A DNA stretch of 39,585 nucleotides from Pseudofrankia coriaricola (GTDB taxonomy: Bacteria; Actinomycetota; Actinomycetes; Frankiales; Frankiaceae), in NCBI RefSeq assembly GCF_001854805.1, contig NZ_MBLO01000053.1:1-39585 (forward strand), in the 5' to 3' direction. The notes under the pieces were generated by a model. That model ran no database searches and was not told where the DNA came from. It saw only the letters and a program-made list of their open reading frames with translations. Both the position numbers and the translations under genes were made by a program. Shown one piece after another: positions 12,254 through 34,755 of this stretch (position 1 is the stretch's first letter; every line of letters begins with the position of its first letter).

Positions 12254-12290
12254 TTGTATACAAGCCATGACTTGCATCATTTGTATACAC
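12254..12290 (-). promoter_or_regulatory. Operator pair in front of block A
   Basis: Two palindromic boxes, TTGTATACAA at 12254-12263 (perfect) and TTGTATACAC at 12281-12290, have centres 27 bases apart. The nearer box ends 20 bases upstream of the isochorismatase-like start at 12234. TTGTATACAA-type palindromes are typical of GntR/FCD repressors. The same boxes recur at 15235-15263, 21076-21108 and 34701-34755. Confidence 0.8.
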
Positions 12291-12341
12291 GATGGTTGAG
12301 ATGCGCAAGAGCCCGCCGCGCGGCACTACGCGGCCGGCGGG

Positions 12342-12869
12342 TCAGGGCGAAAGCAGGGCGTAGGACGGGTCGGTCCGGTCGCGCCGGCCGAGCGGAGGCC
12401 TCGATGACAGCGCCGGGCCCGCCGGCGGGAGCAGATGGGTCAGGTCGACGACCACCAGCCGGTGGGCGATGCGCCATTCGCCCGCGCGGCGCTCGAAGCG
12501 GTCGAGGTAGCGGCCCGCGGCCACGAGCACGCCTTCCTCGCCGGCGACCTCGACGGTGCGCCAGACGGTGTAGTACGTCTCGCAGGCCGCCGTGCCATCG
12601 CCGTGCAGGGTGATCAGCTGATTGGTGAGCTGGTTCGACGAGACCCGTGCCGAGCTCGCCAGGTCGGCGATGCCCTGGCCGACCGTCTCGCCGGTGAACC
12701 GGGCCTCGCCGTGTTCGTCGACCGCGTCCGGGTGGTATGCCGAGCTGATGAGCTCGGGGTCGGCCCGGTCCACGCCTCTGCAGTAGCGCAGGGTCGCCTC
12801 GCGGATCGCCTGCTTGTCCAGCAGCTGCTGGACGGCGGTCGCCTCGATGTCGGCCCGGGACGTCGTCAT
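12342..12869 (-). CDS. NTF2-like/SnoaL-like protein
   Basis: A 175-residue protein of the NTF2 fold (SnoaL_4 type). Typical landmarks are the opening helix QQLLDKQAIREATLRYCRGV, the acidic segment SAYHPDAVDEHG, then WRTVEVAGEEGVLVAAGRYL, and the core strand RAGEWRIAHRLVVVD. The last 30 residues are Pro/Arg-rich and probably disordered. Relatives act as small lyases, isomerases or dehydratases; the beta subunit of ring-hydroxylating oxygenases shares this fold, but the sequence is closer to free-standing SnoaL-like proteins. It lies between the block A operator and the lipoprotein gene, on the same strand as both. A 254-base gap separates it from the lipoprotein gene. Confidence 0.75.
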   Translation of the reverse strand: MTTSRADIEATAVQQLLDKQAIREATLRYCRGVDRADPELISSAYHPDAVDEHGEARFTGETVGQGIADLASSARVSSNQLTNQLITLHGDGTAACETYYTVWRTVEVAGEEGVLVAAGRYLDRFERRAGEWRIAHRLVVVDLTHLLPPAGPALSSRPPLGRRDRTDPSYALLSP

Positions 12870-13123
12870 GGATGGGTGGCCTCCGATCAGCTAGAGGCGA
12901 ACCAGGGCTGGTGAGGGCGCGCGCTGGCACCCCGCAAGGGGTCGCGCGGCGGCCGCACCGCTCCAGAGCGGAACGCTGAGAGGTGAGCACTTACTTTTGA
13001 ACTGAATGAGGGTCACATGTGCCGTTCAATCGCCCGGCGTGCTGGCCCGAGCCGGGGGCTGGCCGGCCCACCCCGCGCCGAGACGATGCCGGGCGGGGCG
13101 GGCTGGGCAGTTGCCTTGGCCCA

Positions 13124-14425
13124 TCAGTCCTCGATCGGGGTGTCCTCCGTTGTCTCGTAGGTGGTCGGCTGGCCCTTGTCGTCGAGCTTGGTGACCAGGC
13201 CGCCGCGCACACAGACCGCCGGGGACAACGTGCTCGCCTTGCCGTTGCACCGGAAGTGCAGTCCGCCGGTGCCGGGTAGCTCCGTCAGCGGCATCGACTT
13301 GATCTTCGCCGCGACCGTCTGGGGCGTGATGTCTCCGGTGATTCCCTCGAGCGCGGTCCGGAGACCCATGACCACCGTGAACATGCCCATCCCGAAGGTC
13401 GGGTTCTCGGTGCCCACCGATCCCTTGTGGTACTTGTCGAGAATGGCGGTGTAAAGCTGGAAGCCGGGGTCCTTCTCGGCACCGATGGGTGCGGTCGCCG
13501 ACACGCTGACCCCCTTGATGTCCTTACCAGAAAGCGCCTTGCGCATGGCGTCCGTGACGCACGCGCTGATGACCGAGATCGGCCCGGTGAAGCCCAGGAG
13601 ATGCAGGTTCTTGATCGCCGGGATGCACGTCATGTCGTTGCCGAGGATTTGCACCTCGGTGGAGCCGCCGGACACGATCTGCTGCATCTGTGGCGCGATG
13701 TCCGGAGCGCCGAGGGGAACCTTGACGACGTCGAGCTTGATCCCCTCCTTCTCGAAGATTCCCGGCGCCACGGTGGTGTAGAAAGCCGTCGCGGCCGGAA
13801 CGTCCACGACCACCACGGTAACCTTGGAAAGGTTGTTCTTCTTGGCCACGCTGATGGGCAGGGAGGCGAGCTGCGCCACCGGGTTGATGAGAGTGAAGGC
13901 GGTATCGTGGTCGCTTAGCACGTTCGGGTCGCTGGAGCCGTAGAGCACCATCGGGATGCCGGCGTCGTGGAGCGGCTTCCAGATGTTCGCGATGACCGCG
14001 GACTGGCCGATGGCGGTGGCCACGACGTTGTTCTGGACCATCTGGTTGGCGCAGTCGGTGCCCGTTCCCGGGTCGCCCTTGGCCTGGCATACGAAGAGCT
14101 TGATGGGCCGGCCGCCGATCCCACCCTTATGCTCGTCAACATAGGTCGCGACCGCCTTGGCCACGTCCAGTTCGAAGGTGTTGTCGTCGGCGGCGGTAGC
14201 ACCGTCGCTGATGACGCCGATGTTGACCGGCGCGCCAGTCGCCTGCCGCTCCGGGCCGAGGATGTTCGCGGCCGGGGCGGTGCCCGCCGAAGGTTTTTCG
14301 TCGGAGTCGTCACCGCCGCCGCACGCGGCGGAGGTGACGACCAGGGCCGTCAGCGCGGCGACAAACGCCAATCGCCGAGGCGGGCGGCCCCGGCCCGAGC
14401 CTGGGCGGCGTGTCGTCTGTTCCAT
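13124..14425 (-). CDS. ABC-transporter substrate-binding lipoprotein (branched-chain amino acid type)
   Basis: A 433-residue extracellular solute-binding protein. An Arg-rich N-region is followed by the hydrophobic run LAFVAALTALVV and a lipobox TSAAC with Cys35 as the lipidation site, then a Gly/Asp linker. The Leu/Ile/Val-binding-protein fold follows (NIGVISDG, TAIGQSAVIANIWKPLHDAG, TVVVVDVPAA). The ATG at 14425 has a strong ribosome-binding site (AAGGAGATCTG), which decides the start against an upstream ATG. It would capture the pathway substrate outside the cell. No permease or ATPase gene is in the window, so it must work with a distant transporter or act as a sensor. Confidence 0.88.
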   Translation of the reverse strand: MEQTTRRPGSGRGRPPRRLAFVAALTALVVTSAACGGGDDSDEKPSAGTAPAANILGPERQATGAPVNIGVISDGATAADDNTFELDVAKAVATYVDEHKGGIGGRPIKLFVCQAKGDPGTGTDCANQMVQNNVVATAIGQSAVIANIWKPLHDAGIPMVLYGSSDPNVLSDHDTAFTLINPVAQLASLPISVAKKNNLSKVTVVVVDVPAATAFYTTVAPGIFEKEGIKLDVVKVPLGAPDIAPQMQQIVSGGSTEVQILGNDMTCIPAIKNLHLLGFTGPISVISACVTDAMRKALSGKDIKGVSVSATAPIGAEKDPGFQLYTAILDKYHKGSVGTENPTFGMGMFTVVMGLRTALEGITGDITPQTVAAKIKSMPLTELPGTGGLHFRCNGKASTLSPAVCVRGGLVTKLDDKGQPTTYETTEDTPIED

Positions 14426-14562
14426 CAGATCTCCTTCTTGAGGAATGTGCAATGCCGGGAGAAGCCCCGGCGGGCGTGAGGCATGGCTCGCCGAAGGTGG
14501 GCCGCGGCAGGCAGTATCGAGGTACGGATGATTCCGGCGACGACCGGTCAGACGCCTCCGCG

Positions 14563-14578
14563 CGCCGGTCGACCGGCG
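14563..14578. promoter_or_regulatory. Perfect 16-base palindrome upstream of lipoprotein gene
   Basis: CGCCGGTCGACCGGCG is perfectly self-complementary and sits in the 219-base gap between the MarR stop (14645) and the lipoprotein start (14425), both on the minus strand. It could be a MarR-type operator or only a GC-rich chance palindrome. Nothing else in the gap stands out. Confidence 0.3.
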
Positions 14579-14644
14579 GATCCGTCCCCGTGGCGGTCAT
14601 AGTGGCCCGCGCCCGTGTCATCCTTGCCGCGGGTGCGTCGTGAC

Positions 14645-15154
14645 CTACTCGTCGGCGGGCGGTGAGTCGCACATGTAACGCAGGAGAAAGTCGGTGAAGG
14701 CCTTTCGCTCGTCGGCGTCGAGGACGCCGAGGAGCCGCTGCTCGACCTCGAGGGCGTCGGCGCGGCATCCGGTCGCGACCTCTAGGCCGCGCGTCGTCAG
14801 GACGGCACGGAGGATTCGGGCGTTGTTCGGGTCGGCGCTTCGCTCGACGAGACCCAGGCCTTCCAGCGCGGTGAGCGTCTGCTGGGCCGCCTGCGGCGTG
14901 ATGAACATCAGGCGGGCAAGGTCGGCGGCCGAGAGCCCTGGGCGTTGGGCGAGCCGGATCAGGACGCCACCCTGGGCAGAGGTGACGCCGTGGGCGCGCA
15001 TCGCCTCGTCGGCGGCGCGCCGGGTGTAGTGGAAGGCCTGCTTGATGAGCCACGAGATGTGCTCTCGCGGTTCGAACTCCGCTCCCGTCGCGCACCCCCG
15101 ATCTGGCCCGCTGGCCCGCCGCGCCGGTGCGGGGTGGTCGAGCCGCCCTCGCAC
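14645..15154 (-). CDS. MarR-family transcriptional regulator
   Basis: A winged-helix regulator of up to 169 residues. Recognisable parts are the first helix HISWLIKQAFHYTRRAADEAM, the recognition region LSAADLARLMFITPQAAQQT, and the wing ADPNNARILRAVLTTRG. MarR proteins usually bind small aromatic ligands and release an operator. The first ~25 residues after the GTG at 15154 are Arg/Pro-rich and may not be translated; the true start could lie nearer EHISW, but no better start codon with a ribosome-binding site was found. It is divergent from block B across the 117-base operator-containing gap, so it may also touch that promoter. Confidence 0.85.
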   Translation of the reverse strand: MRGRLDHPAPARRASGPDRGCATGAEFEPREHISWLIKQAFHYTRRAADEAMRAHGVTSAQGGVLIRLAQRPGLSAADLARLMFITPQAAQQTLTALEGLGLVERSADPNNARILRAVLTTRGLEVATGCRADALEVEQRLLGVLDADERKAFTDFLLRYMCDSPPADE

Positions 15155-15234
15155 CGGCTTCCAATCACAAGTTCTTGCGAAGCGCAGCGAGCGTATGCTG
15201 GCTCACCGGGACCGTCAAGGGCTCAGGCTCGGAC

Positions 15235-15263
15235 TTGTATACGAGGCACTTCCTTGTATACAA
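15235..15263 (+). promoter_or_regulatory. Operator pair in front of block B
   Basis: Boxes TTGTATACGA (15235-15244) and TTGTATACAA (15254-15263, perfect) have centres 19 bases apart. The second box ends only 7 bases before the DUF35 start at 15271, so it occupies the place of the ribosome-binding site. A bound protein would block both transcription start and leader. Confidence 0.8.
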
Positions 15264-15270
15264 ATGCGGC

Positions 15271-15726
15271 ATGGCGTTGGACCGAGTGACGCAGCCGACG
15301 GAACAGTCACGCCCTCCGGTGGCCGGCGAGAGCCGGCCTGTGCCGTTGGTCGACGACGGCAGCAGGGACTTCTGGCGGGGCGGTGCGGACGGACGGCTCC
15401 TGATCCGCGCCTGCGCTGCCTGCCACCGGCTGTTCCACCCGCCGGGGCCGGTCTGCCCGCACTGCTACTCGCGGTCGGTCACGTCCCGGGCCGTCTCGGG
15501 CCGGGCCACGGTCGCGTCGTACACGGTGACGCACCGCGGCTGGGTGCCCGGCTATGAGCCGCCCTACGTCGTGGCCCGGGTGGTGCTCGCCGAGCAGCCC
15601 GACCTGCATCTGCTGACCAACGTGGTGGGCTGCGACCCCGAGGCGGTCCACACCGGCATGGAGGTCGAAGTGATCTTCGAACAGCGAACAGACGTGTTCG
15701 TGCCCCTGTTCCAGCCGGTCGCATGA
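15271..15726 (+). CDS. Zn-ribbon/OB-fold protein (DUF35 family)
   Basis: A 151-residue DUF35 protein. The rubredoxin-like zinc ribbon is formed by C48, C51, C62 and C65 (RACAACHRLFHPPGPVCPHC). The OB-fold follows (GRATVASYTVTHRG, ARVVLAEQPDLHLLTNVVG). DUF35 proteins pair with thiolase-like partners, and in steroid side-chain degradation such pairs act as retro-aldolases or thiolases on acyl-CoA. The partner overlaps here by four bases (ATGA). The ATG at 15271 has no visible ribosome-binding site because an operator box occupies the leader, so a leaderless transcript is possible. Confidence 0.88.
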   Translation: MALDRVTQPTEQSRPPVAGESRPVPLVDDGSRDFWRGGADGRLLIRACAACHRLFHPPGPVCPHCYSRSVTSRAVSGRATVASYTVTHRGWVPGYEPPYVVARVVLAEQPDLHLLTNVVGCDPEAVHTGMEVEVIFEQRTDVFVPLFQPVA

Positions 15727-16895
15727 CCATCGACCGTCAGGCCGTCGAGCGCCAGGCCATCGTCTCCGGCATCGGACGGTCGGCGACCGGCCGGCGACTG
15801 AACCGACCGGCCCTCGACCTCACCCTCGACGCCTGCCTCGCCGCCATCGCCGACGCCGGCCTGACCCCGCGCGACATCGACGGACTGACCTCCTGGCCAG
15901 ACCAGGCCGTCCCGTTCGGCTTCAGCGGCCCCCGCGTCAGCGACCTGCACAGCCTCCTACGCCTCGACCTGTCATGGATCCTGGGCTGCGGCGACGGCGC
16001 CAACGTCACCGGCATCCTCGGCATCGCCGCCCACGCCGTCGCCACCGGGCTCGCCCGCCATGTACTCGTCTACCGCACGGTCACCGAGTCCACCGCCCAG
16101 GGCACCGGCCGCCGCCCGGCAGTGATGTCCCAGATGCCCGCGCCGTGGCGGACGACCTACGGGGTCGGCTCGCCGGCACAACTCGCCGCCCTCTGGGCGC
16201 GCCACCACTTCGACCGCTACGGCACCACCCGGGAGCAGCTGGCCTGGGTAGCCCTCAACGACCGCCGCAACGCCGCCGACAACCCCGACGCGATCTTCCG
16301 CGACCCGATGACCCTGGACGACTACCTCACGACCCGAATGATCAGCAACCCGCTATGCCTTCTCGACTGCGACGTCCCCGCGGACGGCGCGTTCGCCTTC
16401 GTCATCTCCCACGCCGACCACCGACACGACACCGAGCGACCTGTCTTCTTCGAGGCCGTCGGCGGCGGCCGGCCAATGACATCCAGCTGGGAGTTCTGGC
16501 CCGACCTCGACGTCATGGCCGCCATGAAGGCCGCCGACCAGCTATGGTCACGCACCACACTGCGGCCCACCGACGTCGACCTCGCCTACCTCTACGACGG
16601 CTTCAGCATCTTCGTCCTCTACTGGCTCGAAGCGCTCGGCTTCTGCGCCCGAGGCGAGTCAGGACCATTCATCGAAGGCGGCACACGCATCGCCCGCGAC
16701 GGCGACCTGCCCCTCAACACCTCCGGCGGCCAGCTCTCCGAAGGCCGCTACCTCGGCTTCGGCCACGCCTACGAAGCCTTCCTACAACTACGCAACCAAG
16801 CAGGCCCCCGCCAGGTCACCGACACCCAGATCGCCCTCGTGACCGGCGGCGGCGGGCCGCTCGCCCAGGCATTCCTCTTCACCAACGACAGGTAG
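15723..16895 (+). CDS. Thiolase-like (SCP2/lipid-transfer type) protein
   Basis: A 390-residue thiolase-fold protein. Start ATG 15723 overlaps the DUF35 stop. The N-half contains GIGRSATGRRL and the dimer-core region LDLSWILGCGDGANVTG, where classical thiolases would place the nucleophile Cys in a CATG-like context; no clear equivalent is present. The C-half has DVDLAYLYDGFSIF and LNTSGGQLSEGRYLGFGHAY. This matches the lipid-transfer branch, whose steroid-degradation members (Ltp2 type) cleave beta-hydroxyacyl-CoA by retro-aldol chemistry with their DUF35 partner. Retro-aldolase is therefore my preferred inference over thiolysis, but not proven. Confidence 0.85.
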   Translation: MTIDRQAVERQAIVSGIGRSATGRRLNRPALDLTLDACLAAIADAGLTPRDIDGLTSWPDQAVPFGFSGPRVSDLHSLLRLDLSWILGCGDGANVTGILGIAAHAVATGLARHVLVYRTVTESTAQGTGRRPAVMSQMPAPWRTTYGVGSPAQLAALWARHHFDRYGTTREQLAWVALNDRRNAADNPDAIFRDPMTLDDYLTTRMISNPLCLLDCDVPADGAFAFVISHADHRHDTERPVFFEAVGGGRPMTSSWEFWPDLDVMAAMKAADQLWSRTTLRPTDVDLAYLYDGFSIFVLYWLEALGFCARGESGPFIEGGTRIARDGDLPLNTSGGQLSEGRYLGFGHAYEAFLQLRNQAGPRQVTDTQIALVTGGGGPLAQAFLFTNDR

Positions 16896-16905
16896 GGCGG
16901 TACAC

Positions 16906-17751
16906 ATGGACTTACTGGACCGGCTCGGCGCGGTGGTTGTCGGCGGCGGGAGCGGAATCGGGCGCGGGACCGCCTTAGCGCTCGCCGCGGAGGGAATGCG
17001 AGTCCTCGTCGCCGACATCGACGTCGAGACTGCGGAGGCGACCCGCGACGAGATCATCCGCCGCGGCGGTGACGCGACCGCCGCATACGTCGACGCGACC
17101 GACGAGGCCTCGTTGGCGAAGCTCACGGCGCGCGCGGAGGACCTGGGTGGCGTACGCGTGCTCATTCACACCGTCGGCGTCCATACCAATGCTCCGCTGA
17201 CAACCGCCGACGAGAACCTGTGGGCCTGGTTCATCGAGTTCCACCTCATGTCGGCGGTGCGCGTGGTCAGGGCCTTCCTGCCGCTGCTGCGCGGGCACGA
17301 CGGCGGGTCGCACATCGTCGTCACCTCATCGATGTCCGGCCTGTTGGCGCTGCCCGCGGCGGAGACGGGGGGCACGGACACCGGCGTGTACACCGCTCTG
17401 AAGCACGCCATCGTCGGGTACGGCGAAATGCTGCGGATGGAGGTGGCGCCCGAGGGCATCGGGGTGTCGGTGCTCTGCCCCGGCGCGGTGGTCACCAACC
17501 TGGGTTCGACCACTGCTCGGCATCGCCCGGCGCGTTTCGGTGGGCCGCTGCCCGACCCGATGGCCGGGCGCACTATGTCACCCGACATGATCCCCTCGGG
17601 CATGCTGCAGCATGAGGCCGTCGGGCCCTACGTCGTGCGGGGCATCCGCGCGAACCGCGCCTACATCATCACGCACACCGAGATGGCGGACCAAGTGCTC
17701 GCCCGCCAGCAGCGCCTGCTGGACGACATCGCATTCTTCGCAACGCCCTAG
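16906..17751 (+). CDS. SDR-family oxidoreductase
   Basis: A 281-residue SDR, longer than the classical ~250. The cofactor motif is GGGSGIG near residues 13-19, and Asp in VLVADIDVE suggests NAD. The catalytic Ser is in VVTSSMSG, and the Tyr/Lys pair is in VYTALKHA. The NNAG position reads HTVG, a departure from consensus. The C-terminal extension (RANRAYIITHTEMADQVLAR) is typical of the subgroup acting on bulky alcohols. It starts 10 bases after the thiolase-like gene and is part of block B. Confidence 0.87.
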   Translation: MDLLDRLGAVVVGGGSGIGRGTALALAAEGMRVLVADIDVETAEATRDEIIRRGGDATAAYVDATDEASLAKLTARAEDLGGVRVLIHTVGVHTNAPLTTADENLWAWFIEFHLMSAVRVVRAFLPLLRGHDGGSHIVVTSSMSGLLALPAAETGGTDTGVYTALKHAIVGYGEMLRMEVAPEGIGVSVLCPGAVVTNLGSTTARHRPARFGGPLPDPMAGRTMSPDMIPSGMLQHEAVGPYVVRGIRANRAYIITHTEMADQVLARQQRLLDDIAFFATP

Positions 17752-17882
17752 CGCCGCCACCACCGGCGACGGAAAGCGCCCCGCATGCCGGGGTGTCCTG
17801 CTCGATAGCGCTCGAAACCACTCTGGCTGGCGCAACGCCAGCAATGCCGCCAGGAAGTGTTCAGACAGCGAGGATTTTTCTG

Positions 17883-18635
17883 ATGACGGGTCTGCTCGAG
17901 GGCAAGGTAGCGATCATCACCGGGGCGGGCCGTGGCATCGGCAAGGCCTGCGCGGAGGTGTTTGTCCGCGAAGGCGCGCTCGTTGCCGCGGTGGACATCA
18001 CCGGCGCGGAGAAGGACGTGGCATCCGAATTAGGGGATCGTGTCCTGCCCATTCACGCCGATGTCGCGTCGGAGAACGACGTCACGCGCATGATCGACGC
18101 CACCGTGGCACGGTTCGGACGCATCGACGTCCTCGTGAACAATGCGGCGACCGTCGCCGGCCGCAAATGGGACGTCGACTACCTCAGCAGCGAGGAGTAC
18201 GCGGTCCACACGGAGGTCAACTTCTTCGGTGTCCTGCTCTGCATGCAGAAGACCATTCCCGTGATGATCGAGAACGGCGGCGGCTCCATCGTCAACATCT
18301 CCTCGGTCGGTTCGTTCAACGCGGAGGAGCGGGCCCCCGCCGCATACGGGGCGTCGAAGGCGGCCGTGAACCACCTGACGAAGTCGGTCGCGGTCGAATA
18401 CGGCGCCCGTGGCATCCGTGCGAACGTCGTCGCGCCGGGCTTCAACTACACGGAACAGACGAGACGCATCCCCGCGGAGAAGCTCGAGCCTCTGGCCCGG
18501 AAGGCTGCTCTGGGCCGCCCGGGCGAGTCCGCGGAGCAGGCCGAGGTGGTGGCCTTCTTCGCCTCCGATCGCGCCTCCTTCGTAAGTGGCGCGATCCTCC
18601 CGGTCGACGGCGGCTGGTCAGCACGGCTCGCCTGA
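17883..18635 (+). CDS. SDR-family oxidoreductase, island paralogue 2
   Basis: A 250-residue classical SDR: TGAGRGIG near residues 12-19, VNNAAT, Ser in ISSVGS, Tyr/Lys in YGASKAAVN, ending PVDGGWSARLA. VDITGAEKD after beta-2 indicates NAD preference. It is the block B member of the trio of near-identical-pattern SDRs (10606, 17883, 25900). The start is ATG 17883, preceded by GCGAGGA; an upstream in-frame ATG at 17793 has no ribosome-binding site and would add antisense-like residues. A 131-base gap follows the previous SDR, so a secondary promoter is possible. Confidence 0.9.
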   Translation: MTGLLEGKVAIITGAGRGIGKACAEVFVREGALVAAVDITGAEKDVASELGDRVLPIHADVASENDVTRMIDATVARFGRIDVLVNNAATVAGRKWDVDYLSSEEYAVHTEVNFFGVLLCMQKTIPVMIENGGGSIVNISSVGSFNAEERAPAAYGASKAAVNHLTKSVAVEYGARGIRANVVAPGFNYTEQTRRIPAEKLEPLARKAALGRPGESAEQAEVVAFFASDRASFVSGAILPVDGGWSARLA

Positions 18636-18820
18636 TCACACGAAAAGAGTTGCGGCGGTGCCCGTGACCCGTATGCTCGGCCGTCGCGTCCACGTGGTTC
18701 CCAGCAACGCTGCCGGGGCTGCCTGGACCCGACGGCCGAGCTAAACGTTGTCTGACGTGGCACCAGCGACCAGCCGCGGCAGGAATCGGAGCGGTCGCGC
18801 CATCAGAAGGAGAGAGTGCG

Positions 18821-19600
18821 TTGGAGCTGGCGGGCAAGGTCGTGATAGTCACTGGCGGCGCCGGGAATCTCGGGTCGGTGTGCGCGCGCCGCCTTGCGGA
18901 GGCGGGTGCTGCCGTCGTCGTCTCCGATCTTCCGGAGGCCGATGTCGAGAGCGTCGTCGACGGGATAGTGAAAGCGGGGGGAACGGCTGTCGGCCACGGC
19001 GGCGACGTCAGCGAGGAGGACGACATCGTCGCCATGGTCGGGACCAGTGTGCGCGAATATGGCCGCCTGGACGCACTCGTGAACGTCGCCGGCGCCATCG
19101 GTCTCGTCCGGCTGGATCGCGATCTCACCGAGATGCCCGTGGAGACCTGGGACGCGATCATGGCCGTCAACGCGCGCGGCCCGATGCTTGGCTGCAAGCA
19201 CGCGATCCCGGCGATGCTGGCAACCGGCGGCGGCTCGATCATCAACTTCACGTCGCCCGCCGCCTTTCGCGGCGACGATCGGCTCTTCGCGTACTCCGCC
19301 TCCAAGGCGGCGGTCATCGGGCTGACCCTCACGGTGGCGACCGCCTACGGCAAACAGGGAATCCGGTGTAACGCGATCGCGCCCGGCTGCGTCTGGTCCG
19401 AGCGCTACCGGGAGCACATCCCGGCCGACATGCTCGACCTCATGGAGCGTGTCGCACTCACGCCGCGCCTCGGGCTGCCCGACGATATCGCCCACATGAC
19501 GGTCTATCTGGCGTCGGACAAGGCCGGCTACGTGACCGGCCAGACGCTGGTCGTCGACGGGGGCCTCGGCTCCCACCAGCCATGGGTCGGCGCGCGGTAG
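18821..19600 (+). CDS. SDR-family oxidoreductase
   Basis: A 259-residue SDR starting at TTG 18821, supported by the ribosome-binding site agaaggagag eight or so bases upstream. The cofactor loop is altered to TGGAGNLG. VSDLPEAD after beta-2 fits NAD, and LVNVAG, Ser in NFTSPAAF, and Tyr/Lys in YSASKAAV are present. The tail GQTLVVDGGLGSHQPW is that of enzymes acting on cyclic or sugar-like diols. It is separated from the previous SDR by 185 bases and from the epimerase by 13, so it probably forms a tight pair with the latter. Confidence 0.87.
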   Translation: MELAGKVVIVTGGAGNLGSVCARRLAEAGAAVVVSDLPEADVESVVDGIVKAGGTAVGHGGDVSEEDDIVAMVGTSVREYGRLDALVNVAGAIGLVRLDRDLTEMPVETWDAIMAVNARGPMLGCKHAIPAMLATGGGSIINFTSPAAFRGDDRLFAYSASKAAVIGLTLTVATAYGKQGIRCNAIAPGCVWSERYREHIPADMLDLMERVALTPRLGLPDDIAHMTVYLASDKAGYVTGQTLVVDGGLGSHQPWVGAR

Positions 19601-19613
19601 GGGCTGCGTCCAC

Positions 19614-24838: not shown

Positions 24839-24878
24839 GTCACCTCGCGTTCGTCGAACGTGTTGCCGTCGGGGATGA

Positions 24879-25775: not shown

Positions 25776-25899
25776 GTGAGCGTTCCCTCCTCGGCGAGAA
25801 CCGTGCGTGAATTCGTCTTTCCGGCCGCCGGTCCGGGCCTCGACGATGGGTCTTCGCGCCATCGTCTTTCTCGTTTCCGATCACCCGGACGCGGCTGTG

Positions 25900-26634: not shown

Positions 26635-26636
26635 GG

Positions 26637-27536: not shown

Positions 27537-27595
27537 GTGCACCTCGAGTTCGCGGTACTACAGTGCGATTTCAGCCGGCGGACGGCCGGCCAGCC

Positions 27596-27670
27596 TTGGC
27601 TCAGGAACGGCGAATGCGAGGTGCTCACCCACAGCAGCTCGACCCCCAGCCTGCTCATCGTCCGGTTCAG
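27596..27670 (-). pseudogene. Alpha/beta hydrolase C-terminal scrap
   Basis: The minus strand reads MSRLGVELLWVSTSHSPFLS. It matches the catalytic-His end of the intact hydrolase at 7395 (ARRLGVEPLTIDASHSPFLS) but then runs into unrelated residues. Nothing of the nucleophile half remains. It lies in the 190-base gap between the ferredoxin and BKACE genes, so block C once had its own hydrolase gene here. Confidence 0.75.
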
Positions 27671-27726
27671 AGAAGCCAACGGATTCAGCAGAGGACCCCG
27701 ACGTCGCCGACGTCACCGGGCCAGTT

Positions 27727-28101
27727 TCAGAGCGGGCCCGTTGGAGGGATGGGCACCGTCTGGGTGGGTCGTACGCCTTTCTTGCGTACGACGGCGTCGC
27801 CGGTCGCCCGCGCCCGGCAGGCCAGCCGGATTCTGGTGAGGTCACGGCGCTGCGCGCCGGGCAGCCGGGTCTCGAGCGCGTCCCGCTCCTCGTCGTCAGG
27901 CGGCACCAGGTGCTCGGCGCCGCTGAGCACCTCGACGTGGCAGACCGTGCAGGTCGCCTGGCCGTGGCAGGTCGTGGGCCAGTGGTAGCCGAGCCGCCAG
28001 GCGGCTTCGATGATCGTCTCGTCCGGTTCGAGTTCGAGCTCGGCGTCGACGGGGTCGACGTGGACCACCGGCCCCCGCCGTCCGGCCTGCTCCACCGTCA
28101 T
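27727..28101 (-). CDS. Plant-type [2Fe-2S] ferredoxin
   Basis: A 124-residue soluble electron carrier. The cluster ligands are C45, C51, C54 and C95 (TTCHGQATCTVCHVEV, RLACRA), in the spacing of plant-type or adrenodoxin-like ferredoxins. DETIIEAAWRLGYHWPTTC is the usual entry helix. A Pro/Lys-rich tail of ~20 residues after C95 is extra. It should feed electrons to the Rieske oxygenase three genes upstream or to the P450. No ferredoxin reductase gene is in the window. The ATG at 28101 lies 70 bases after the FAD enzyme stop. Confidence 0.9.
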   Translation of the reverse strand: MTVEQAGRRGPVVHVDPVDAELELEPDETIIEAAWRLGYHWPTTCHGQATCTVCHVEVLSGAEHLVPPDDEERDALETRLPGAQRRDLTRIRLACRARATGDAVVRKKGVRPTQTVPIPPTGPL

Positions 28102-28171
28102 GAGGCCACCCGCGGGGCAGGCATCGGGCGCGGCGGAGGAGCAGGAGGGACGGGTTTGGGGGGCCAGCCGG

Positions 28172-29887
28172 TCACGTGGCGACGGTTTGTTCGGCGGCGA
28201 CGCGCGCGGCGTGCTTCATCCCGATGTAGGAGAACACGAAGCTCGCGCCGATGCTCGCACCCGCGCCGGGGTAGCTGCGGCCCATCACTGACGCGGTGCA
28301 GTTGCCCGCGGCGTACAGGCCGGGGATGGGCTGGCCGTTGGTGTCGAGCACGCGGGCGTACTCGTCGGACAGGAGGCCGCCGCTGGTGCCGACGTCGCCG
28401 GGGTAGAGCTCGACGGCGTAGAACGGCGGCTTGGCGACCGGGCCAAGCGACGCGTTCGGCTTGTTGCCATAGTCGCCCTGGTAACGCTCGTGCCCGCCCT
28501 CACCGCGGTGGAAGTCCGGGTCGGTGCCCTGCACGGCGAAGCTGTTGAACCGCGCCACCGTCTCGACCAGCCCGGCGGGGTCGATGCCGCAGGCCCTGGC
28601 GAGCTCCTCCAGAGTGTCGGCCTTCTTCATGTAGCCGCTGGTGAGCCACTCGTCGGGAGTGTTGGTCCTGAACGCGAACAGGTAGCGGGCGCGGTGGCGG
28701 GAGTCGATGACGAGCCAGCTCGGGATGGAGCCGCCGTCGGTGTTGTGCGCGTACATCGCCCGGCCGGCAGCCATGTAGGAGTCGGCCTCGTTGAAGTACC
28801 GCTTGCCGGCCTTGTCGACGACAATCGAGCCGGGTTCGCTCCGCTCGCTGTTGTGCATGCTCGGCCGGCCGTTCGGCTGCACCGAGGCCGGCAGCCACCA
28901 GGCCTCGTCCATGAGGTCGACGGCGGCGCCCAGCTTCATGGCGACCTCGATCGCCTCGCCGGTGTCGCCCGGGTTCGCGATGGTCCAGGACCCGTCGTTG
29001 GGCTGCTTTCCGTACCGCTTGCGCATCTCCGGGTTGCGGGCGAACCCGCCCGAGGCCAGCAGCACGGCGTGGCGGGCGCGGATCCGCACCGTCTCGCCGT
29101 CGCGGGTGGCGACGACACCGACGACCCGGCCATCCTCGACGATCAGGTCGACCAGCGGGGTACCGGTCCAGACCGTCACGCCTGCGTCGAGGACCGCCTT
29201 GAGGGTCTGGGCGACCAGCGCCCCGCCGTTGGCGAGCCGCTTCTGGCGCCGCACCCTGCCGGCGGCCGTGCGGGCCCCGACGCGGACCGCCGCGGCCATC
29301 GACCTCGGCCGCCGCTTGACGGCCTGCAGGATGGAGGCCTCGCGGGTCTTCACCACGATCCCGAGCGCGATCGTCATGCCCGGCATGAGCTTGGCGAACC
29401 AGTCCCCGAGCGTCCTGCCATCGGTGACCACGGGCTCGATGGACCGCCCACGCGCCTTTCCGCCGCGGATGCCGGGCTGGCCCTCGTGATAGTCGCTGTA
29501 ACCCTCGCAGCGCTCGAACCGCAGCCCTCGCTCCTGCAGGAAGCGGACCATGTTCGAGCCCTCGGTGAGATAGGCCAGCCGGCGCTGCGGCGAGGACGCC
29601 GGGCCGACGTCTCCGACCACGGCGTCGAAGTACTCGAGGGCCTCCTCCAGGGAGTCCTGAACGCCTTCGGCCTGCATGAGCGGGTTGTTCGGCAGCCACA
29701 GGATGCCGCCCGACATGGCGGTCGCACCCCCGATCATCGGCAGTTTCTCGATGACCAGGGTTTCCAAGCCGCTGGTCGCCGCGGTGAGCGCGCCGCACAG
29801 GCCGCCGCCCGACCCCACCACGACGACGTCGGTGGTGTACTCCGATTCCGACACGGTCGCCCCCTCTGATAAGCGGTCTTGTGTCAT
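28172..29887 (-). CDS. FAD-dependent dehydrogenase, 3-ketosteroid delta1-dehydrogenase/fumarate reductase-like
   Basis: A 571-residue flavoprotein. The Rossmann motif VVVVGSGGGLCGALTAA is at 21-37 with the ribose-binding Glu in VIEKLP, then GGATAMSGGILWLP, and a second FAD site near the C-terminus (GLYAAGNCTASVMGRSYPGA). The architecture (FAD domain, inserted substrate domain, FAD end) is that of KstD and flavocytochrome-c-type enzymes, which introduce or remove a C=C bond next to a carbonyl. No heme or covalent flavin motif is seen. The start is the ATG at 29887, 11 bases after the Rieske stop; a GTG at residue 12 (SESEYTT) is an alternative. A desaturation step on a cyclic ketone is the likely job. 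Confidence 0.9.
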   Translation of the reverse strand: MTQDRLSEGATVSESEYTTDVVVVGSGGGLCGALTAATSGLETLVIEKLPMIGGATAMSGGILWLPNNPLMQAEGVQDSLEEALEYFDAVVGDVGPASSPQRRLAYLTEGSNMVRFLQERGLRFERCEGYSDYHEGQPGIRGGKARGRSIEPVVTDGRTLGDWFAKLMPGMTIALGIVVKTREASILQAVKRRPRSMAAAVRVGARTAAGRVRRQKRLANGGALVAQTLKAVLDAGVTVWTGTPLVDLIVEDGRVVGVVATRDGETVRIRARHAVLLASGGFARNPEMRKRYGKQPNDGSWTIANPGDTGEAIEVAMKLGAAVDLMDEAWWLPASVQPNGRPSMHNSERSEPGSIVVDKAGKRYFNEADSYMAAGRAMYAHNTDGGSIPSWLVIDSRHRARYLFAFRTNTPDEWLTSGYMKKADTLEELARACGIDPAGLVETVARFNSFAVQGTDPDFHRGEGGHERYQGDYGNKPNASLGPVAKPPFYAVELYPGDVGTSGGLLSDEYARVLDTNGQPIPGLYAAGNCTASVMGRSYPGAGASIGASFVFSYIGMKHAARVAAEQTVAT

Positions 29888-29897
29888 TGGGATGCCT

Positions 29898-31247
29898 TCA
29901 GCCGGCGAGGTACCGGTCGAGCTCGGCGTGCATGTTGCTGATGATCTGCTCCATCTCGGTGGCGAGCCGGTGCTGCTCGTAGCTGCGCGAGTGGAGGCCG
30001 CGTTGCATGCGCTCGATGTTGGAGAAGTCCTGGCGCGGGATCAGGCCCCAGTTCTCGTGGTCGTCGGGGGCGAACCGCCCCTTCAGCTTCGCCCGACCAG
30101 GCTCGTCGCCTTCGGGATACATGGTCAGCGACCACACCTCGAAGCGGCACCACTCGGGGTCGTCGTTGTGGGGGCGGATCCGATAGGACAGGGCGTTACC
30201 GAACTGGGGAAGCACCATGAAGTTCGGGAACAGGAACACCTCACCGCCCCACAGCCGCATGCCCTCCGGCGTCGGGTGGAACGGAATCCCGGCACCCTGC
30301 GCGTAGTCGGACAACGCCTTGATCGCCGCGGTGGGGAAGTCCTCGCTGGGCGGGACCCGGTTGCGCATGCCCCGGAAGACGTGCAGGTCGCGCTCGAGCG
30401 TCATCGCGTCCTGGCCTTCCCACAAGGTCCGGGACCGGTCGAGGAACGCCTGCGCGGGGCGGCCCTGGGAGACCCCACCCGCGGACGGGTCGAACCGGCC
30501 CTGGAACCGGCCGTGGCCGTTCTCGAACGCGGTGTACTCGGTGTTCGCGTACGGGTAGTCCTCGCCGAGGCCGGAGGTGAGCTGCGGATGGGTGGCCATC
30601 ACGTGGTAGCCCTCGTGGAACGCCTCCTGAGCGGTCTTCCAGTTCGCGTTGAGGATGGTCTCCTTCCACCACCACACCCGCATGTTCTCGACGCCGACCG
30701 TGTCCAGCACGTCCGCCGCCGGCGCGAGGGCCTCCCGCAACGGGCGGGCGTCCGGGTCCAGGTTGATCCAGGCACAGGCGCCCCAGGTGTCGACCTGGCA
30801 CTCCCGAAGGCGGATGTCGTCCGGCCGCAGGCACTCGGGCGCGAATCCGTCGGCGCCGTACACGAAGGAGCTGGTGCCGTCGAGGTTCCAGCGCCAGCCG
30901 TGGAACGGGCACACGATCTGCCCCCCGGGCAGCCGCCCGGAACCCTTGCACAGCTGGGTCGCCCGATGACGGCACGCGTTGTGGAACGCCTTCACCGACC
31001 CGTCCGGCTGGCGCACTACCAGGACCGACTGGTCACAGATCTCGTACTCGACGAAGTCCCCCGGGCGAGGAATCTCCTCCAGCCGGCAGGCCATCTGCCA
31101 GACCCGCGGCCAGAGATGCTCCTTTTCGAGCTCGAAGAACTCCCGGTCGTAGTAACGCTCCTTCGGCACGCGCAACCGGTCACGCATCCCGAACGGCACA
31201 GGACGAGCAGCGGCCTTTCGGCGCTCGTCGGTGACGGACATCGGCAT
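29898..31247 (-). CDS. Rieske non-heme iron oxygenase, alpha subunit
   Basis: A 449-residue ring-hydroxylating oxygenase large subunit. The Rieske [2Fe-2S] ligands are C92, H94, C113 and H116 (CRHRATQLC, VCPFHGWRW). The mononuclear iron ligands are H215 and H220 in EGYHVMATH. The acidic residue three before H215, which links electron flow from the Rieske centre, is Glu212 rather than the Asp of naphthalene dioxygenase; Glu also occurs in carnitine-oxygenase-like members. No beta-subunit gene is adjacent, so an alpha-only oligomer is probable. It would hydroxylate or demethylate the substrate with electrons from the 27727 ferredoxin. Confidence 0.93.
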   Translation of the reverse strand: MPMSVTDERRKAAARPVPFGMRDRLRVPKERYYDREFFELEKEHLWPRVWQMACRLEEIPRPGDFVEYEICDQSVLVVRQPDGSVKAFHNACRHRATQLCKGSGRLPGGQIVCPFHGWRWNLDGTSSFVYGADGFAPECLRPDDIRLRECQVDTWGACAWINLDPDARPLREALAPAADVLDTVGVENMRVWWWKETILNANWKTAQEAFHEGYHVMATHPQLTSGLGEDYPYANTEYTAFENGHGRFQGRFDPSAGGVSQGRPAQAFLDRSRTLWEGQDAMTLERDLHVFRGMRNRVPPSEDFPTAAIKALSDYAQGAGIPFHPTPEGMRLWGGEVFLFPNFMVLPQFGNALSYRIRPHNDDPEWCRFEVWSLTMYPEGDEPGRAKLKGRFAPDDHENWGLIPRQDFSNIERMQRGLHSRSYEQHRLATEMEQIISNMHAELDRYLAG

Positions 31248-31289
31248 CAGCCTTCTTCCATGCGGTCTTCGCGTCGGTTCCGGACGGCG

Positions 31290-31532
31290 TCAGTCCGCTG
31301 TGCGGATCACTCCGATCACGGCCCCGATGTCGTAGACCGTCTCGATCTCGCCGCTCCAGTGGACGGTGCCGGACGCGCCGGCGGCGATCTCGGACTCGAC
31401 CTTGTCCGTCGCGACCAGGAAGAGCGGATCACCTTCGCTGACCTGCGCTCCTTCCTCCACGAGCAGGTCGAGGAGCTCCGCCTCCGAGATGGCGACGGAC
31501 ATCCGCGGAATACGGATCTCGAATTCAGCCAT
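31290..31532 (-). CDS. Free-standing lipoyl-domain carrier protein
   Basis: An 80-residue protein consisting only of a biotinyl/lipoyl domain. The lipoylated Lys is K44 in the hairpin ATDKVESEI, and flanking strands FEIRIPRMSVAISEAELLDL and GTVHWSGEIETVYDIGAVIG complete the flattened barrel. In ordinary complexes this domain is fused to the E2 acyltransferase; here there is no E2 core. The start ATG at 31532 overlaps the E1 beta stop by eight bases, so the two are coupled. It probably carries the acyl group formed by E1 to a partner encoded elsewhere. Confidence 0.92.
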   Translation of the reverse strand: MAEFEIRIPRMSVAISEAELLDLLVEEGAQVSEGDPLFLVATDKVESEIAAGASGTVHWSGEIETVYDIGAVIGVIRTAD

Positions 31533-32535
31533 GAGCCCCTGCCCTGACAGTTGCCGGCGCCAGCGTGCGCTGGACGGCCGCGATGACACGGTCTGCGCTC
31601 GGGTACACCTGTGATTCGAGCGCCGACGGCCCTGGATTCGGGACGAACCGGGCACCCAGCCGCTCTACCGGTGCCTCCAGCACGCCGAAAAGCTCGCTGT
31701 GCAGAATGGAAGCGATCTCCGCTCCGGGCCCAGCGAACCGCACCGCGTCGTGTACGACGACGGCCCGCCTCGTGCGGCGCACGGACTCGACGATCGCCTC
31801 CACGTCAAGCGGGACCAGGGTGCGCAGGTCGAGTACCTCGGCGCTGATTCCCTCCTGCTCGAGGGTCGCGGCCGCGCCAAGCGCGTCGAGCACCGCGCGG
31901 CCGTAGCTGATCAGTGTGACGTCGGTACCCGGTCGCTTCACGTCAGCCTGGCCGAGCGGGATCGCGAAGGCGGGGTCGGTCGGGACCAGCCCGCGCTGCC
32001 CCCGCAGCCGGATCGTCTCCACGAAGATGCACGGGTCGTCGTCGAAGATCGCCGACGTGAGCAGGCCCTTGCCGTCGCGTGGTGTCGAGGGAACGATCAC
32101 CTTCAGTCCGGGGACGTGCATGAACCAGGCTTCCAGCGACTGGGAGTGGGTCGCGCCGGTGCCCAGGCCGCCGTAGACCTGCACCCTGACCGTGATGGGC
32201 GCGGTTGTCCGGCCCCCGGTCATGAATCGCAGCTTCGCCGCGTGATTGACGATCTGGTCGGCGGCGATACCGATAAAGTCCATGATCATGATTTCGGCGA
32301 CCGGGCGGAACCCCTCCATCGCCGCGCCAATCGCGGCGCCCACGATCGCCGCCTCGGAGATCGGCGTGTCCAGCACCCGGTCGACGCCGTACTTGGTGGA
32401 AAGCTTGGCGGTCGGCCCGGAGGCGCCTGGATCGGCGATGTCCTCGCCCAGGAGAAAGACGCGCTCGTCATGAGCCAGCGCCTGATCCAACGCCAGGTTC
32501 AGCGCCTGGGTCATTGTCATTCGTTGTTCGTCCAC
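31525..32535 (-). CDS. 2-oxo acid dehydrogenase E1 beta subunit (transketolase-like)
   Basis: A protein of about 336 residues, the second half of a ThDP-dependent E1. Family landmarks are LGEDIADPG, TPISEAAIVGAAIGAAMEGF, PVAEIMIMDFIGIAADQIVN and PSTPRDGKGLL. With E1 alpha it would decarboxylate a 2-oxo acid and acylate the lipoyl carrier; branched-chain, pyruvate and acetoin types cannot be told apart here. I prefer the GTG at 32535 because AGAGG sits five bases before it; the ATG at 32520 is the alternative. The open frame extends upstream only through the tandem repeat 32545-32618, which is not coding. Confidence 0.92.
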   Translation of the reverse strand: MDEQRMTMTQALNLALDQALAHDERVFLLGEDIADPGASGPTAKLSTKYGVDRVLDTPISEAAIVGAAIGAAMEGFRPVAEIMIMDFIGIAADQIVNHAAKLRFMTGGRTTAPITVRVQVYGGLGTGATHSQSLEAWFMHVPGLKVIVPSTPRDGKGLLTSAIFDDDPCIFVETIRLRGQRGLVPTDPAFAIPLGQADVKRPGTDVTLISYGRAVLDALGAAATLEQEGISAEVLDLRTLVPLDVEAIVESVRRTRRAVVVHDAVRFAGPGAEIASILHSELFGVLEAPVERLGARFVPNPGPSALESQVYPSADRVIAAVQRTLAPATVRAGAHG

Positions 32536-32544
32536 GTCCGCCTC

Positions 32545-32618
32545 TACACGGAACAGGTACCGGTACACGGAGCAGGTGCCGGTACGCCGAGCAGGTGGGT
32601 ACACAAAGCAGGTAGGGG
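32545..32618 (+). repeat. Four-copy tandem repeat, ~19-base unit
   Basis: Units start at 32545 (tacacggaacaggtaccgg), 32564 (tacacggagcaggtgccgg), 32583 (tacgccgagcaggtggg, 17 bases) and 32600 (tacacaaagcaggtagggg). They fill the whole gap between the E1 alpha stop and the E1 beta leader. The common core is TACRC-GARCAGGT. No palindrome is obvious in the unit. Confidence 0.85.
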
Positions 32619-32629
32619 CCGCGTCGGCC

Positions 32630-33628
32630 CTATGCTGGGCAGTTGCGCGGGTCGGCGTACACGTCGCGGTCCAGCTCGTCGAGCGCCGTCGCCGGCGCCG
32701 CCAGCACCGTCGCGAGCGCCTCCTCCACAGCCGCGGCCGACGCCCGCTCGATCTCGTCGAGATCGAGCTCGCCAAAGTTCCCGGCCTCCAGCAGACGGGC
32801 CCGGAAGCGCGGGACAGGATCGGCCGCCGAAGCGGCGGCCAGTTGCCCTTCGGGCATGTAGGCCATGGGGTCGCCGAAGTAGTGGCCGCGCAGCCGGAAC
32901 GTCACGCACTCCAGCAGCGTCGGGCCGCCGCCGCTCCTGGCCCGCTCGACCGCGTCCGTCAGCGCCACGACGAGAGCTATGGGGTCGTTGCCGTCGACGC
33001 GGACGCCGGGCATCCCGTACCCGGCCGCCCGGTCGGCGACGTGGGCAATCTTCATGGTGTGCTCGGTCGGCGTCATCTCGCCGTACTGGTTGTTCTGACA
33101 CACCAGCACCACCGGCAGGTCCCACAACGCGGCCATGTTCGCCGCCTCGTGGAACGAGCCGGTGTTCGTGGCCCCGTCGCCGAAACTCGCGACGGTCACC
33201 CGGTCGAGACCCAAGCGCCGGGCGGCCATGGCCAGCCCGACCGCGACCGGCGGCCCCGATCCCACGATCCCGGTCGAGAGCATGACGCCGGACTCCGGGC
33301 GAGCGATGTGCATCGTCCCGCCCTTGCCCCGGGCGGCCCCCACCTGCCGGCCCAGCATCTCGCCATAGATCTCCACCAGCGGCACGCCCTTGCCGATGAG
33401 GTCGTGCAGCCCCCGGTAAGTCGTGACCAGCCGGTCGTCCTCACGAAGGCACACACCCGCCGCCGCGGCGATCGCCTCCTGTCCGCGCGACGGCCAGTAC
33501 ACGCAGACCAACTCGCCCGACGCGATCCCCTTGCTTAACCGATCGTCAGCCGCCTTCATCAGCGTCATCAGCTCGTAGAGCCGGCGCTGGACCTCGGGTG
33601 ACACATCGACGGTCAGGTCCGTCGTCAC
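32630..33628 (-). CDS. 2-oxo acid dehydrogenase E1 alpha subunit
   Basis: A 332-residue ThDP-binding subunit. The ThDP/Mg motif opens with GDGATNTGSFHEAANMAA at 150 and closes with NN at 179-180, the family spacing of about 30. Other landmarks are SRGQEAIAAAAGV, KGGTMHI and GHYFGDPMAYMP, typical of acetoin/pyruvate-type E1 alpha. The GTG at 33628 is chosen because GGAAGGA precedes it; the open frame upstream overlaps the TauD gene end and is not used. It starts 44 bases after the TauD stop and is separated from E1 beta by a tandem-repeat spacer. No E3 (dihydrolipoamide dehydrogenase) is present. Confidence 0.92.
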   Translation of the reverse strand: MTTDLTVDVSPEVQRRLYELMTLMKAADDRLSKGIASGELVCVYWPSRGQEAIAAAAGVCLREDDRLVTTYRGLHDLIGKGVPLVEIYGEMLGRQVGAARGKGGTMHIARPESGVMLSTGIVGSGPPVAVGLAMAARRLGLDRVTVASFGDGATNTGSFHEAANMAALWDLPVVLVCQNNQYGEMTPTEHTMKIAHVADRAAGYGMPGVRVDGNDPIALVVALTDAVERARSGGGPTLLECVTFRLRGHYFGDPMAYMPEGQLAAASAADPVPRFRARLLEAGNFGELDLDEIERASAAAVEEALATVLAAPATALDELDRDVYADPRNCPA

Positions 33629-33672
33629 ATCTGATCCTTCCTTTCCGAATCCGAATCGGCCACAAGGGCGGC

Positions 33673-34509
33673 TCAGCTGGGGCCGTAGGGCCGGTCGCCC
33701 GCGAGGACGACGCGCTGCATCACCCGGGTGCTGCCGTAGTCGGGCACCGCGTAGTGCTGGACGGCGCGGTTGTCCCACATCGCCACATCGTTCGGCGCCC
33801 ACCGGTGCCGCATGGTGAAGTCCGGCGACTTCACGTGCTCGAACAGCAGCGCGAGCAGGTGGGCGCTCTCGGCCGGCGTCAGCTCGACGATGCGGGTGGT
33901 CCACCCCTCGCTGACGAACAGGGCCTTACGCCCGGTCTCGGGATGCACCCGGATCACCGGATGAACGTGCTCCAGGCCGTGAGACGACGCGGAGTGGTTG
34001 GCATGCTCCGTGCCGGACTGGCCCATACGCTCGATCACCGGGAACACCGAATGCACCGCGGTCAGGCCGTCGAGCATGCCCCGCAGCGGCGCTGAGAGGG
34101 CGTCGTAGGCCGCGTACATACTGCCCCAGCAGGTGTCCCCACCGACCGGCGGCAGGCTGACCGCCCGCAGCGCCGTCAGGCTCGGCGGCTCGGTGACGTA
34201 CGTCGTGTCCGAGTGCCACACCGACGTCGCCCGCCGGGCACCCAGGAGATCGTTCTCACTCACCACCTCGGATTTGCCGCCGGAGGAGAACGGCTCCGGG
34301 ATCGGCGTGCCGAAGTTCGTCACGAACGCGTGCATCTGGTCCCGGGTCAGCTCCTGGCCGTGAAAAAAGATCACACCGTGCTCGAGGAGCGCCTGGCGCA
34401 GCGCACGCACAACGTCAGGGCCGAGCGGCTCACGGAGATCGACTCCGCCGATGACCGCACCGACCGCCGATGTCACTGGCTGTATGTCAAGCGCCGTTGT
34501 TGTTGGCAT
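33673..34509 (-). CDS. TauD/TfdA-family 2-oxoglutarate-dependent dioxygenase
   Basis: A 278-residue Fe(II)/2-oxoglutarate dioxygenase. The iron triad is H99 and D101 in SVWHSDTTY and H252 in AVQHYAVPDY; the 2-oxoglutarate Arg is in GSTRVMQR (262-266). Length and layout match taurine- or 2,4-D-type enzymes, which hydroxylate a carbon next to a heteroatom and release aldehyde plus leaving group. ATG 34509 is supported by GGGAGG eight bases upstream, deciding against the long open extension to 34755. First gene of block C, divergent from the CoA-transferase gene, with three operator boxes in the shared 299-base control region. Confidence 0.93.
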   Translation of the reverse strand: MPTTTALDIQPVTSAVGAVIGGVDLREPLGPDVVRALRQALLEHGVIFFHGQELTRDQMHAFVTNFGTPIPEPFSSGGKSEVVSENDLLGARRATSVWHSDTTYVTEPPSLTALRAVSLPPVGGDTCWGSMYAAYDALSAPLRGMLDGLTAVHSVFPVIERMGQSGTEHANHSASSHGLEHVHPVIRVHPETGRKALFVSEGWTTRIVELTPAESAHLLALLFEHVKSPDFTMRHRWAPNDVAMWDNRAVQHYAVPDYGSTRVMQRVVLAGDRPYGPS

Positions 34510-34700
34510 TTCGTCTGCCTCCCTGGCCTTGGAGATGTGCCGACCCGCGCCATCGCCCAAGCGGTGACGCACCGCCGCGCGGGCGGCGGGGTCACCCGCG
34601 CGCCGGCCAGAGCCGCCGTCTCGAGCACCTGAGCGGGGTCGTCGTCGGGCTGTCGGGCGGAGCGGGTCAGCGTGAACAGGTGGCCGAGTTTCAACTACCG

Positions 34701-34755
34701 ATGTATACAACCATAGGGCGGTGCATACAACCACCGCGCCGCCTGTTGTATACAA
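34701..34755. promoter_or_regulatory. Triple operator in the divergent block C/D control region
   Basis: Boxes are ATGTATACAA (34701-34710), GTGCATACAA (34721-34730, degenerate) and TTGTATACAA (34746-34755, perfect), with centres 20 and 25 bases apart. The last lies 53 bases before the CoA-transferase start and the first about 190 bases before the TauD start, so one cluster can govern both directions. Confidence 0.8.

Follow-up and report, generated by a model that had tools for sequence, protein, structure and literature searches.

Which protein controls the catabolic genes on a 39,585-base contig of Pseudofrankia coriaricola, where one short palindrome recurs ahead of several gene blocks? 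The window analysed here is this whole contig (C53). A preliminary description had assigned the palindromes to a GntR/FCD regulator encoded at 37964-38674, and our comparisons uphold this assignment: the palindrome tracks the regulator across genomes (4/4 against 0/31), and the order of the operon is kept. We consider it highly probable that nine boxes, mostly paired, are operators of this regulator, which would act as an autoregulated local repressor. Four computed results carry this reading, namely the rarity and clustering of the boxes, their co-occurrence with the regulator, their conservation before orthologous operons, and the conserved DNA-contact residues of the protein. The putative operator boxes are as follows.

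12254-12263, box TTGTATACAA, proximal, 19 bp from the start (12234, minus strand) of the isochorismatase-type open reading frame (ORF)
12281-12290, box TTGTATACAC, distal partner of 12254, spacing 27
15235-15244, box TTGTATACGA, paired with 15254
15254-15263, box TTGTATACAA, spacing 19 from 15235
21076-21085, box GTGTATACGA, paired with 21099
21099-21108, box TTGTATACAC, spacing 23, ahead of the second substrate-binding lipoprotein gene
34701-34710, box ATGTATACAA, between divergent operons
34721-34730, degenerate box GTGCATACAA, without a complete GTATAC
34746-34755, box TTGTATACAA, forming the core of a conserved 15-bp block and 53 bp upstream of the CoA-transferase ORF

The window contains eight copies of the core hexamer GTATAC, and every one falls at one of the four places 12254/12281, 15235/15254, 21076/21099 and 34701/34721/34746, as the preliminary description had stated. 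In 100 dinucleotide shuffles of the window its mean number was 0.93 and its maximum 4, with none reaching 8. The chance expectation given earlier, two to three GTATAC per 40 kb, was too high, since the genome holds 225 in 11.2 Mb, or about 0.8 per 40 kb; with 339 in the reversed control, the hexamer as such is not enriched. When up to three mismatches to TTGTATACAA were allowed, the window gave 26 matches, compared with a mean of 13.5 and a largest value of 22 in the shuffles. The nine boxes have 0-2 mismatches to TTGTATACAA, and the sole further match within two mismatches is TTGCAGACAA at 5042. Across the counted clusters the boxes of a pair are spaced 18-27 bp apart, and in a logo of 47 boxes the information is nearly confined to the 10-bp core, which was itself used in selecting them. 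Palindromic hexamers recur in any genome, as the 225 copies illustrate, and the boxes could thus be chance, coding or repeat DNA. We give this explanation a negligible probability, because no shuffle reached the observed count and, as described below, the same operons are preceded by boxes in rearranged clusters.

The exact 10-mer TTGTATACAA is found six times in the genome, three times in the window and three times on contig C266 (reversed control, 2). All 14 genome matches to KTGTATACAM lie in the window (five) or on C266 (nine), against two in the control, so that this form is confined to two contigs rather than being frequent genome-wide without a tie to these genes. That all nine matches outside the window share one 116.5-kb contig has a probability of about 1e-16 under random placement. 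Close pairs of GTATAC number nine, three in the window, three on C266 and one each on C97, C271 and C276 (the last at 14499), with one in the control. On C97 the pair (1824/1848, positions 1824-1857) is a weaker one, ATGTATACAA/TCGTATACAA, located some 80 bp ahead of an ORF for a carboxylesterase, and may mark a further member of the regulon. The C271 pair at 61180 was set aside as it looks coding: similar pairs occur in several members of the genus, and their changes, judged by eye, keep a VYxxGYExVY-like reading. The compact regulon proposed at 7395-38674 is thus supported as a local regulon, but it also reaches C266, with its nine strong boxes and a paralogous regulator.

Relatives of the window proteins encoded on C266 include an amidohydrolase (79% identical), SDR1 (79%), a CoA-transferase (71%), TauD (67%), a KstD-like protein (67%) and BKACE (66%). 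The paralogous GntR/FCD regulator (C266:55538-56446) is 59-60% identical to that of the window and is flanked by boxes on both sides (55141 and 56564), and the recognition regions of the two proteins are nearly identical. The C266 pair 6239/6258 is ringed by short remnants of window DNA, a MarR fragment with 97% protein identity and an SDR4 fragment with 96%. These truncated, near-identical copies occupy C266:5951-6680 and point to a recent exchange or duplication between the clusters.

In order to follow box and regulator across genomes, we used the 35 genomes of the family; a search at the level of the order returned the same 35. Close homologues of the regulator (E < 1e-80) were present in four, namely the own genome with two copies and G031, G018 and G020 with one each, the latter being 69-72% identical to the window protein. 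Ten other matches in the family at E 1e-20 or better were 35-41% identical. Exact TTGTATACAA was found in 4/4 genomes with a close homologue and in 0/31 without one (Fisher p = 1.9e-5 on the assumption of independent genomes). A clean separation of the two groups needs the exact form, as the looser KTGTATACAM gave 23 scattered matches in 16 of the 31 genomes lacking a close homologue. Two of these 23, the strong boxes G006:C426:7578 and G010:C406:1822, lie about 160 bp upstream of regulator relatives that are 36-39% identical. In a contig search with narrow peptide patterns, a single close relative (Parafrankia soli, 72%) came up along with four that are remote.

These identities bear on the possibility that the C266 paralogue reads the boxes while the window regulator has another target or none. 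Boxes flank the C266 gene, and its recognition region is nearly identical; however, the single homologues of G031, G018 and G020 are closer to the window protein (69-72%) than the C266 protein is (59%), and they are embedded in a boxed operon. We hold this alternative to be very improbable.

The upstream regions in related genomes, which the preliminary description had proposed to compare, tell the same story, with boxes again preceding orthologous operons in G018, G020 and G031. In all three, the order of box pair, CoA-transferase, amidohydrolase and GntR gene is kept, and in the window the regulator gene sits in the operon behind the triple box. In G031, pairs precede the ChsH2-thiolase genes, the E1-Rieske-KstD-ferredoxin block, the CoA-transferase-amidohydrolase-GntR operon and the isochorismatase gene. 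In G018 and G020, boxes precede the isochorismatase gene, the operon from CoA-transferase to GntR, and BKACE-TauD, and a single weaker box, TTGTATACGC, stands before E1 alpha. Counted by operon, boxes lie ahead of the CoA-transferase to GntR operon in 4/4 genomes and ahead of the isochorismatase gene in 4/4 (the G020 match being partial, 88/196 residues), ahead of the ChsH2-thiolase genes and the E1-Rieske-KstD block in the window and G031, and ahead of BKACE in G018 and G020. The gene order is rearranged relative to the window; the boxes nonetheless stay with their operons. A 15-base block, TGTTGTATACAAGTC, is identical in all four aligned CoA-transferase promoters, and the end of the proximal box lies 50-55 bases from the CoA-transferase ORF in each of the four genomes. 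The isochorismatase ORF or match starts 19 bp after the proximal box in both the window and G018, and the pair 15235/15254 recurs in G031 with both box sequences and the spacing of 19. The pair 21076/21099 had no counterpart in the clusters of G031, G018 and G020 and is proposed from its sequence alone.

A Pfam scan of 40 window ORFs yielded two regulators, the GntR/FCD protein and a MarR protein (14645-15154). The latter was passed over in the preliminary description and is the obvious rival, as its gene is the divergent neighbour of the pair 15235/15254, with the start of the ORF about 80 bp from box 15235. The 97% identical MarR fragment likewise adjoins the C266 pair 6239/6258. Against this, the match to the window MarR in G018 is only 36% identical (E 2e-12, like that in many other genomes) and G020 has none at 1e-10, and yet six strong boxes are present in each of these genomes. 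The best MarR match of G031 (49%) is 2.2 Mb away from the boxes. Since G018 and G020 carry boxes without a close MarR match, we rejected MarR as the reader, an assignment we regard as very improbable. A different MarR-type gene is found in G031 about 0.6 kb past the last box pair (G031:C1 3198067-3198840, that is L093:8068-8841), with no match to the window MarR at 1e-10.

The protein proposed to read the boxes is the following.

37964-38674, plus strand, GntR/FCD regulator by Pfam, with E40, R51 and R55 kept

It has an N-terminal GntR winged helix (PF00392, E 3.6e-17, 62.2 bits against a cut-off of 27) and a C-terminal FCD domain (PF07729, E 6.6e-18, 65.8 bits against a cut-off of 24.3). In Atu1419 of Agrobacterium fabrum, a GntR protein with a VanR-type FCD domain that binds the 10-mer ATGTATACAT, Glu34, Arg45 and Arg49 contact the DNA (PMC7797058). 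E40, R51 and R55 of the window regulator align with these residues and are invariant in 5/5 sequences from four genomes, while Thr46 of Atu1419 is replaced by Ile52. Zinc is bound in Atu1419 by N137, H141, H192 and H214 (PMC7797058). The Asp/Asn and three His ligands typical of metal-binding FCD domains are not found in the window regulator, which as aligned has K138, F142, L189 and N211 at those places. The alignment included 12 other FCD rows of the own genome (10 distinct ORFs), among which L025 has the full canonical set and the others have parts of it. All five aligned homologues lack the ligands at the canonical places, and some of them have a His nearby, at 144 in 3/5 and at 190 in 1/5. 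As the canonical ligands are replaced, a metal-chelated carboxylate appears less likely as effector; judging by the pathway, a coenzyme A (CoA) thioester would be our guess. A structure predicted from a two-sequence alignment had a mean predicted local distance difference test (pLDDT) score of 48.6, too poor a model to count the C-terminal helices (six or seven in VanR/FadR).

We then asked how far the association extends among distant relatives. In 393 genomes drawn from the class, with the best few candidates scored per genome, a match at E 1e-35 or better was present in nine, including five from outside the family that are 44-48% identical. For these five, 14-20 kb of surrounding sequence was taken; with the short loci of the ten relatives within the family (35-41%), this made 15 loci. 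In 14 of these (35-48% identity) GTATAC lies within 300 bp of the regulator gene, and in the fifteenth at 427 bp. For other FCD loci of the own genome the figures were 0/28 within 300 bp and 4/28 within 1.5 kb, with the reservation that relatives and controls were drawn from different genomes, the controls from a single one, and that base composition is unmatched. The 28 are the 30 loci of 35 FCD matches minus two members of the clade, and four of the loci come from only two ORFs, two from each. GTATAC stands on the 5' side in 9/10 family relatives and only on the 3' side in 3/5 of the others (L108-L110), so that autoregulation, as judged from the placement of sites, is not general among the distant relatives. 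The flanks of the box differ among relatives (CTGTATACTG, CGGTATACCA, TTGTATACGG), as expected for a diverging clade.

Upstream of some distal boxes a second element is conserved.

12303-12308, minus strand, TTGCGC, a -35-like element 12 bp before box 12281

The same composite of TTGCGC and box stands before boxes in C266, G031, G018 and G020. TTGCGC was first spotted by eye in the same data, in an upstream alignment of the isochorismatase genes that is partly spoilt (one G020 row is the wrong stretch, the G031 row is poor) and served only to notice it. Of the 94 sequences upstream of the 47 boxes, taken in both directions, seven have it exactly at -18, where 0.017 are expected; when one mismatch is allowed, the number is nine, against 0.46 expected. 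Exact matches to the composite CTTGCG-N14-TGTATACAA number nine across the 35 genomes, all of them in the four with a close homologue. These matches are partly non-independent, given G018 and G020 and the C266 sites 3229 and 7630, which lie inside a 241-bp duplication at 87% identity; exact matches alone support the composite, which at two mismatches is not commoner than in the reversed control (own genome, 4 versus 8). The duplicated stretch (C266:3159-3396 and 7560-7799) contains one box and TTGCGC. The conserved TTGCGC is possibly a -35 element; alternatively, it is the site of a second factor. We do not claim that the 19-bp-spaced pair 15235/15254 forms a -35/-10 pair with a near-leaderless start at 15271, as the distance to the start differs in G031.

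The promoters fit the sigma-70 consensus poorly, as activated promoters often do, and activating FCD proteins exist, such as CitO, which induces in the presence of citrate (PMC4746285). The window regulator could therefore be an activator or a dual regulator. Two features argue otherwise: the proximal boxes are closer to the start codons (19 bp for isochorismatase, 50-55 bp for CoA-transferase) than expected of an activator site, and the conserved TTGCGC lies before the boxes, not after them. We regard activation as unlikely and prefer repression by the GntR/FCD protein.

The following scheme is inferred as regards binding, the choice of repression over activation, the promoter geometry, the effector and cross-talk. 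A dimer of the regulator would sit on each 10-bp palindrome TTGTATACAA, and two such boxes at a spacing of 18-27 bp would span the promoter. Where TTGCGC is conserved 12 bp before the distal box, that box would contain the -10 region and the proximal box would lie just past the transcription start. Thus bound, the regulator would block RNA polymerase at the pathway operons and at its own operon, until released by a pathway intermediate, perhaps a CoA thioester. The C266 paralogue would probably share this operator on its sister cluster, and the two clusters may be co-induced.

Several points weigh against this scheme. Of the four window sites, a single one (box 12281) has TTGCGC, and none of the composite sites has a final T in its -10-like TACAAN. 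A sigma-70 scan returned no promoter at any of the four window places, a result that is weakly informative in a GC-rich genome. The spacing of the boxes varies by almost a helical turn, and a rigid two-dimer complex is therefore unlikely. Two of the 47 counted boxes, both weak (G031 stretch 3644 and C266:35324), fit unclearly. G018 and G020 are one genus with near-identical layouts, so that the genomes compared are not independent. Finally, without the four metal ligands in the aligned protein, the effector chemistry of metal-binding FCD domains cannot be carried over.

MatR of rhizobia is reportedly an FCD repressor with a TTGTATACAA-like operator in a different pathway, that of malonate. Atu1419 resembles the window system in its FCD family, its 10-bp palindrome with a GTATAC core, and its several sites per regulon, some overlapping the -10 region; it differs in that its paired sites are 109 or 190 bp apart, with a looping tetramer proposed, and in that it binds zinc through the ligands replaced here (PMC7797058). 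FadR-subfamily regulons likewise have palindromic GT..AC operators, divergent promoters and double sites, and the groups with a 2-nt GT-AC spacing are GntR, HpxS, HypR, MdcY, PrpR and UxuR (PMC4494728). The orthologous group of the window regulator does not appear in the passages of this catalogue that were consulted, supplementary lists aside (PMC4494728). DgoR of E. coli is also an FCD repressor, with two inverted repeats over the promoter of a catabolic operon, but it has a metal-containing effector pocket and serves another pathway (PMC7674646). NanR of E. coli, a GntR-type repressor, places three dimers on closely spaced repeats, comparable to the triple box, whereas its operator is a (GGTATA)3 repeat and not separate 10-bp palindromes (PMC8012715). 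In literature containing TTGTATACAA, no title on a GntR operator was among the matches listed, and a search pairing Pseudofrankia with GntR found nothing.

The gene blocks of the window are the following.

7395-12234, minus strand, alpha/beta hydrolase, SDR, the 9724 product without an assigned family, SDR, isochorismatase-type hydrolase
12342-15154, minus strand, SnoaL-like protein, substrate-binding protein (Peripla_BP_6), MarR regulator
15271-20615, plus strand, ChsH2-like OB/zinc-ribbon protein (start inferred from the reading frame), thiolase (Ltp2-like), three SDRs, epimerase
21275-22564, plus strand, second substrate-binding protein (Peripla_BP_6)
23606-34755, minus strand, TauD-type dioxygenase, E1 alpha, E1 beta, lipoyl domain, Rieske oxygenase, KstD-like flavoprotein, ferredoxin, BKACE, SDR, CMD, P450 (given by ORF bounds, the true TauD start being probably inside)
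34809-38674, plus strand, CoA-transferase III, amidohydrolase, glyoxalase-like protein, GntR/FCD regulator

The KstD-like flavoprotein passes the NCBIfam threshold of the 3-ketosteroid-delta-1-dehydrogenase family (NF009478), and its nearest PDB entry is the 3-oxosteroid 1-dehydrogenase 7p18. The thiolase, which has a ChsH2-like partner, is similar to thiolases of the lipid-transfer type (6ok1). Carnitine monooxygenase and ring-hydroxylating dioxygenases are the closest matches of the Rieske protein, which matches 3-ketosteroid 9-alpha-hydroxylases only weakly. From these similarities, a steroid- or terpenoid-like polycyclic compound is a plausible substrate. For the Peripla_BP_6 proteins at 13124-14452 and 21275-22564, no permease or ATPase match was found among the 40 window ORFs scanned; C266 encodes at least two further substrate-binding proteins of this family. 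At the left contig end (72-4464) an rve-type integrase and two tyrosine recombinases adjoin the catabolic cluster, a possible island boundary.

A wider reading joins these strands into one code, read by two paralogous FCD repressors without the metal site on two parallel clusters, with TTGCGC-N12-TTGTATACAA as -35/-10 and the downstream operator as a roadblock. We offer it tentatively, as rather doubtful. If true, the effector would not be a small metal-chelated carboxylate and could be, for example, the CoA thioester of a steroid- or terpenoid-like substrate.

In summary, the type of switch is ordinary and already known; this case is unusually clear and is extended to C266 and three further genomes. 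A generic oxidoreductase cluster becomes one testable regulon, for which the regulator, its operator and the operons it controls are predicted in four genomes of the Frankia family. The boxes may serve as a label for further pathway genes, such as those on C266 or behind the weaker C97 pair, and deletion of the regulator would, by derepression, offer a route to the substrate.

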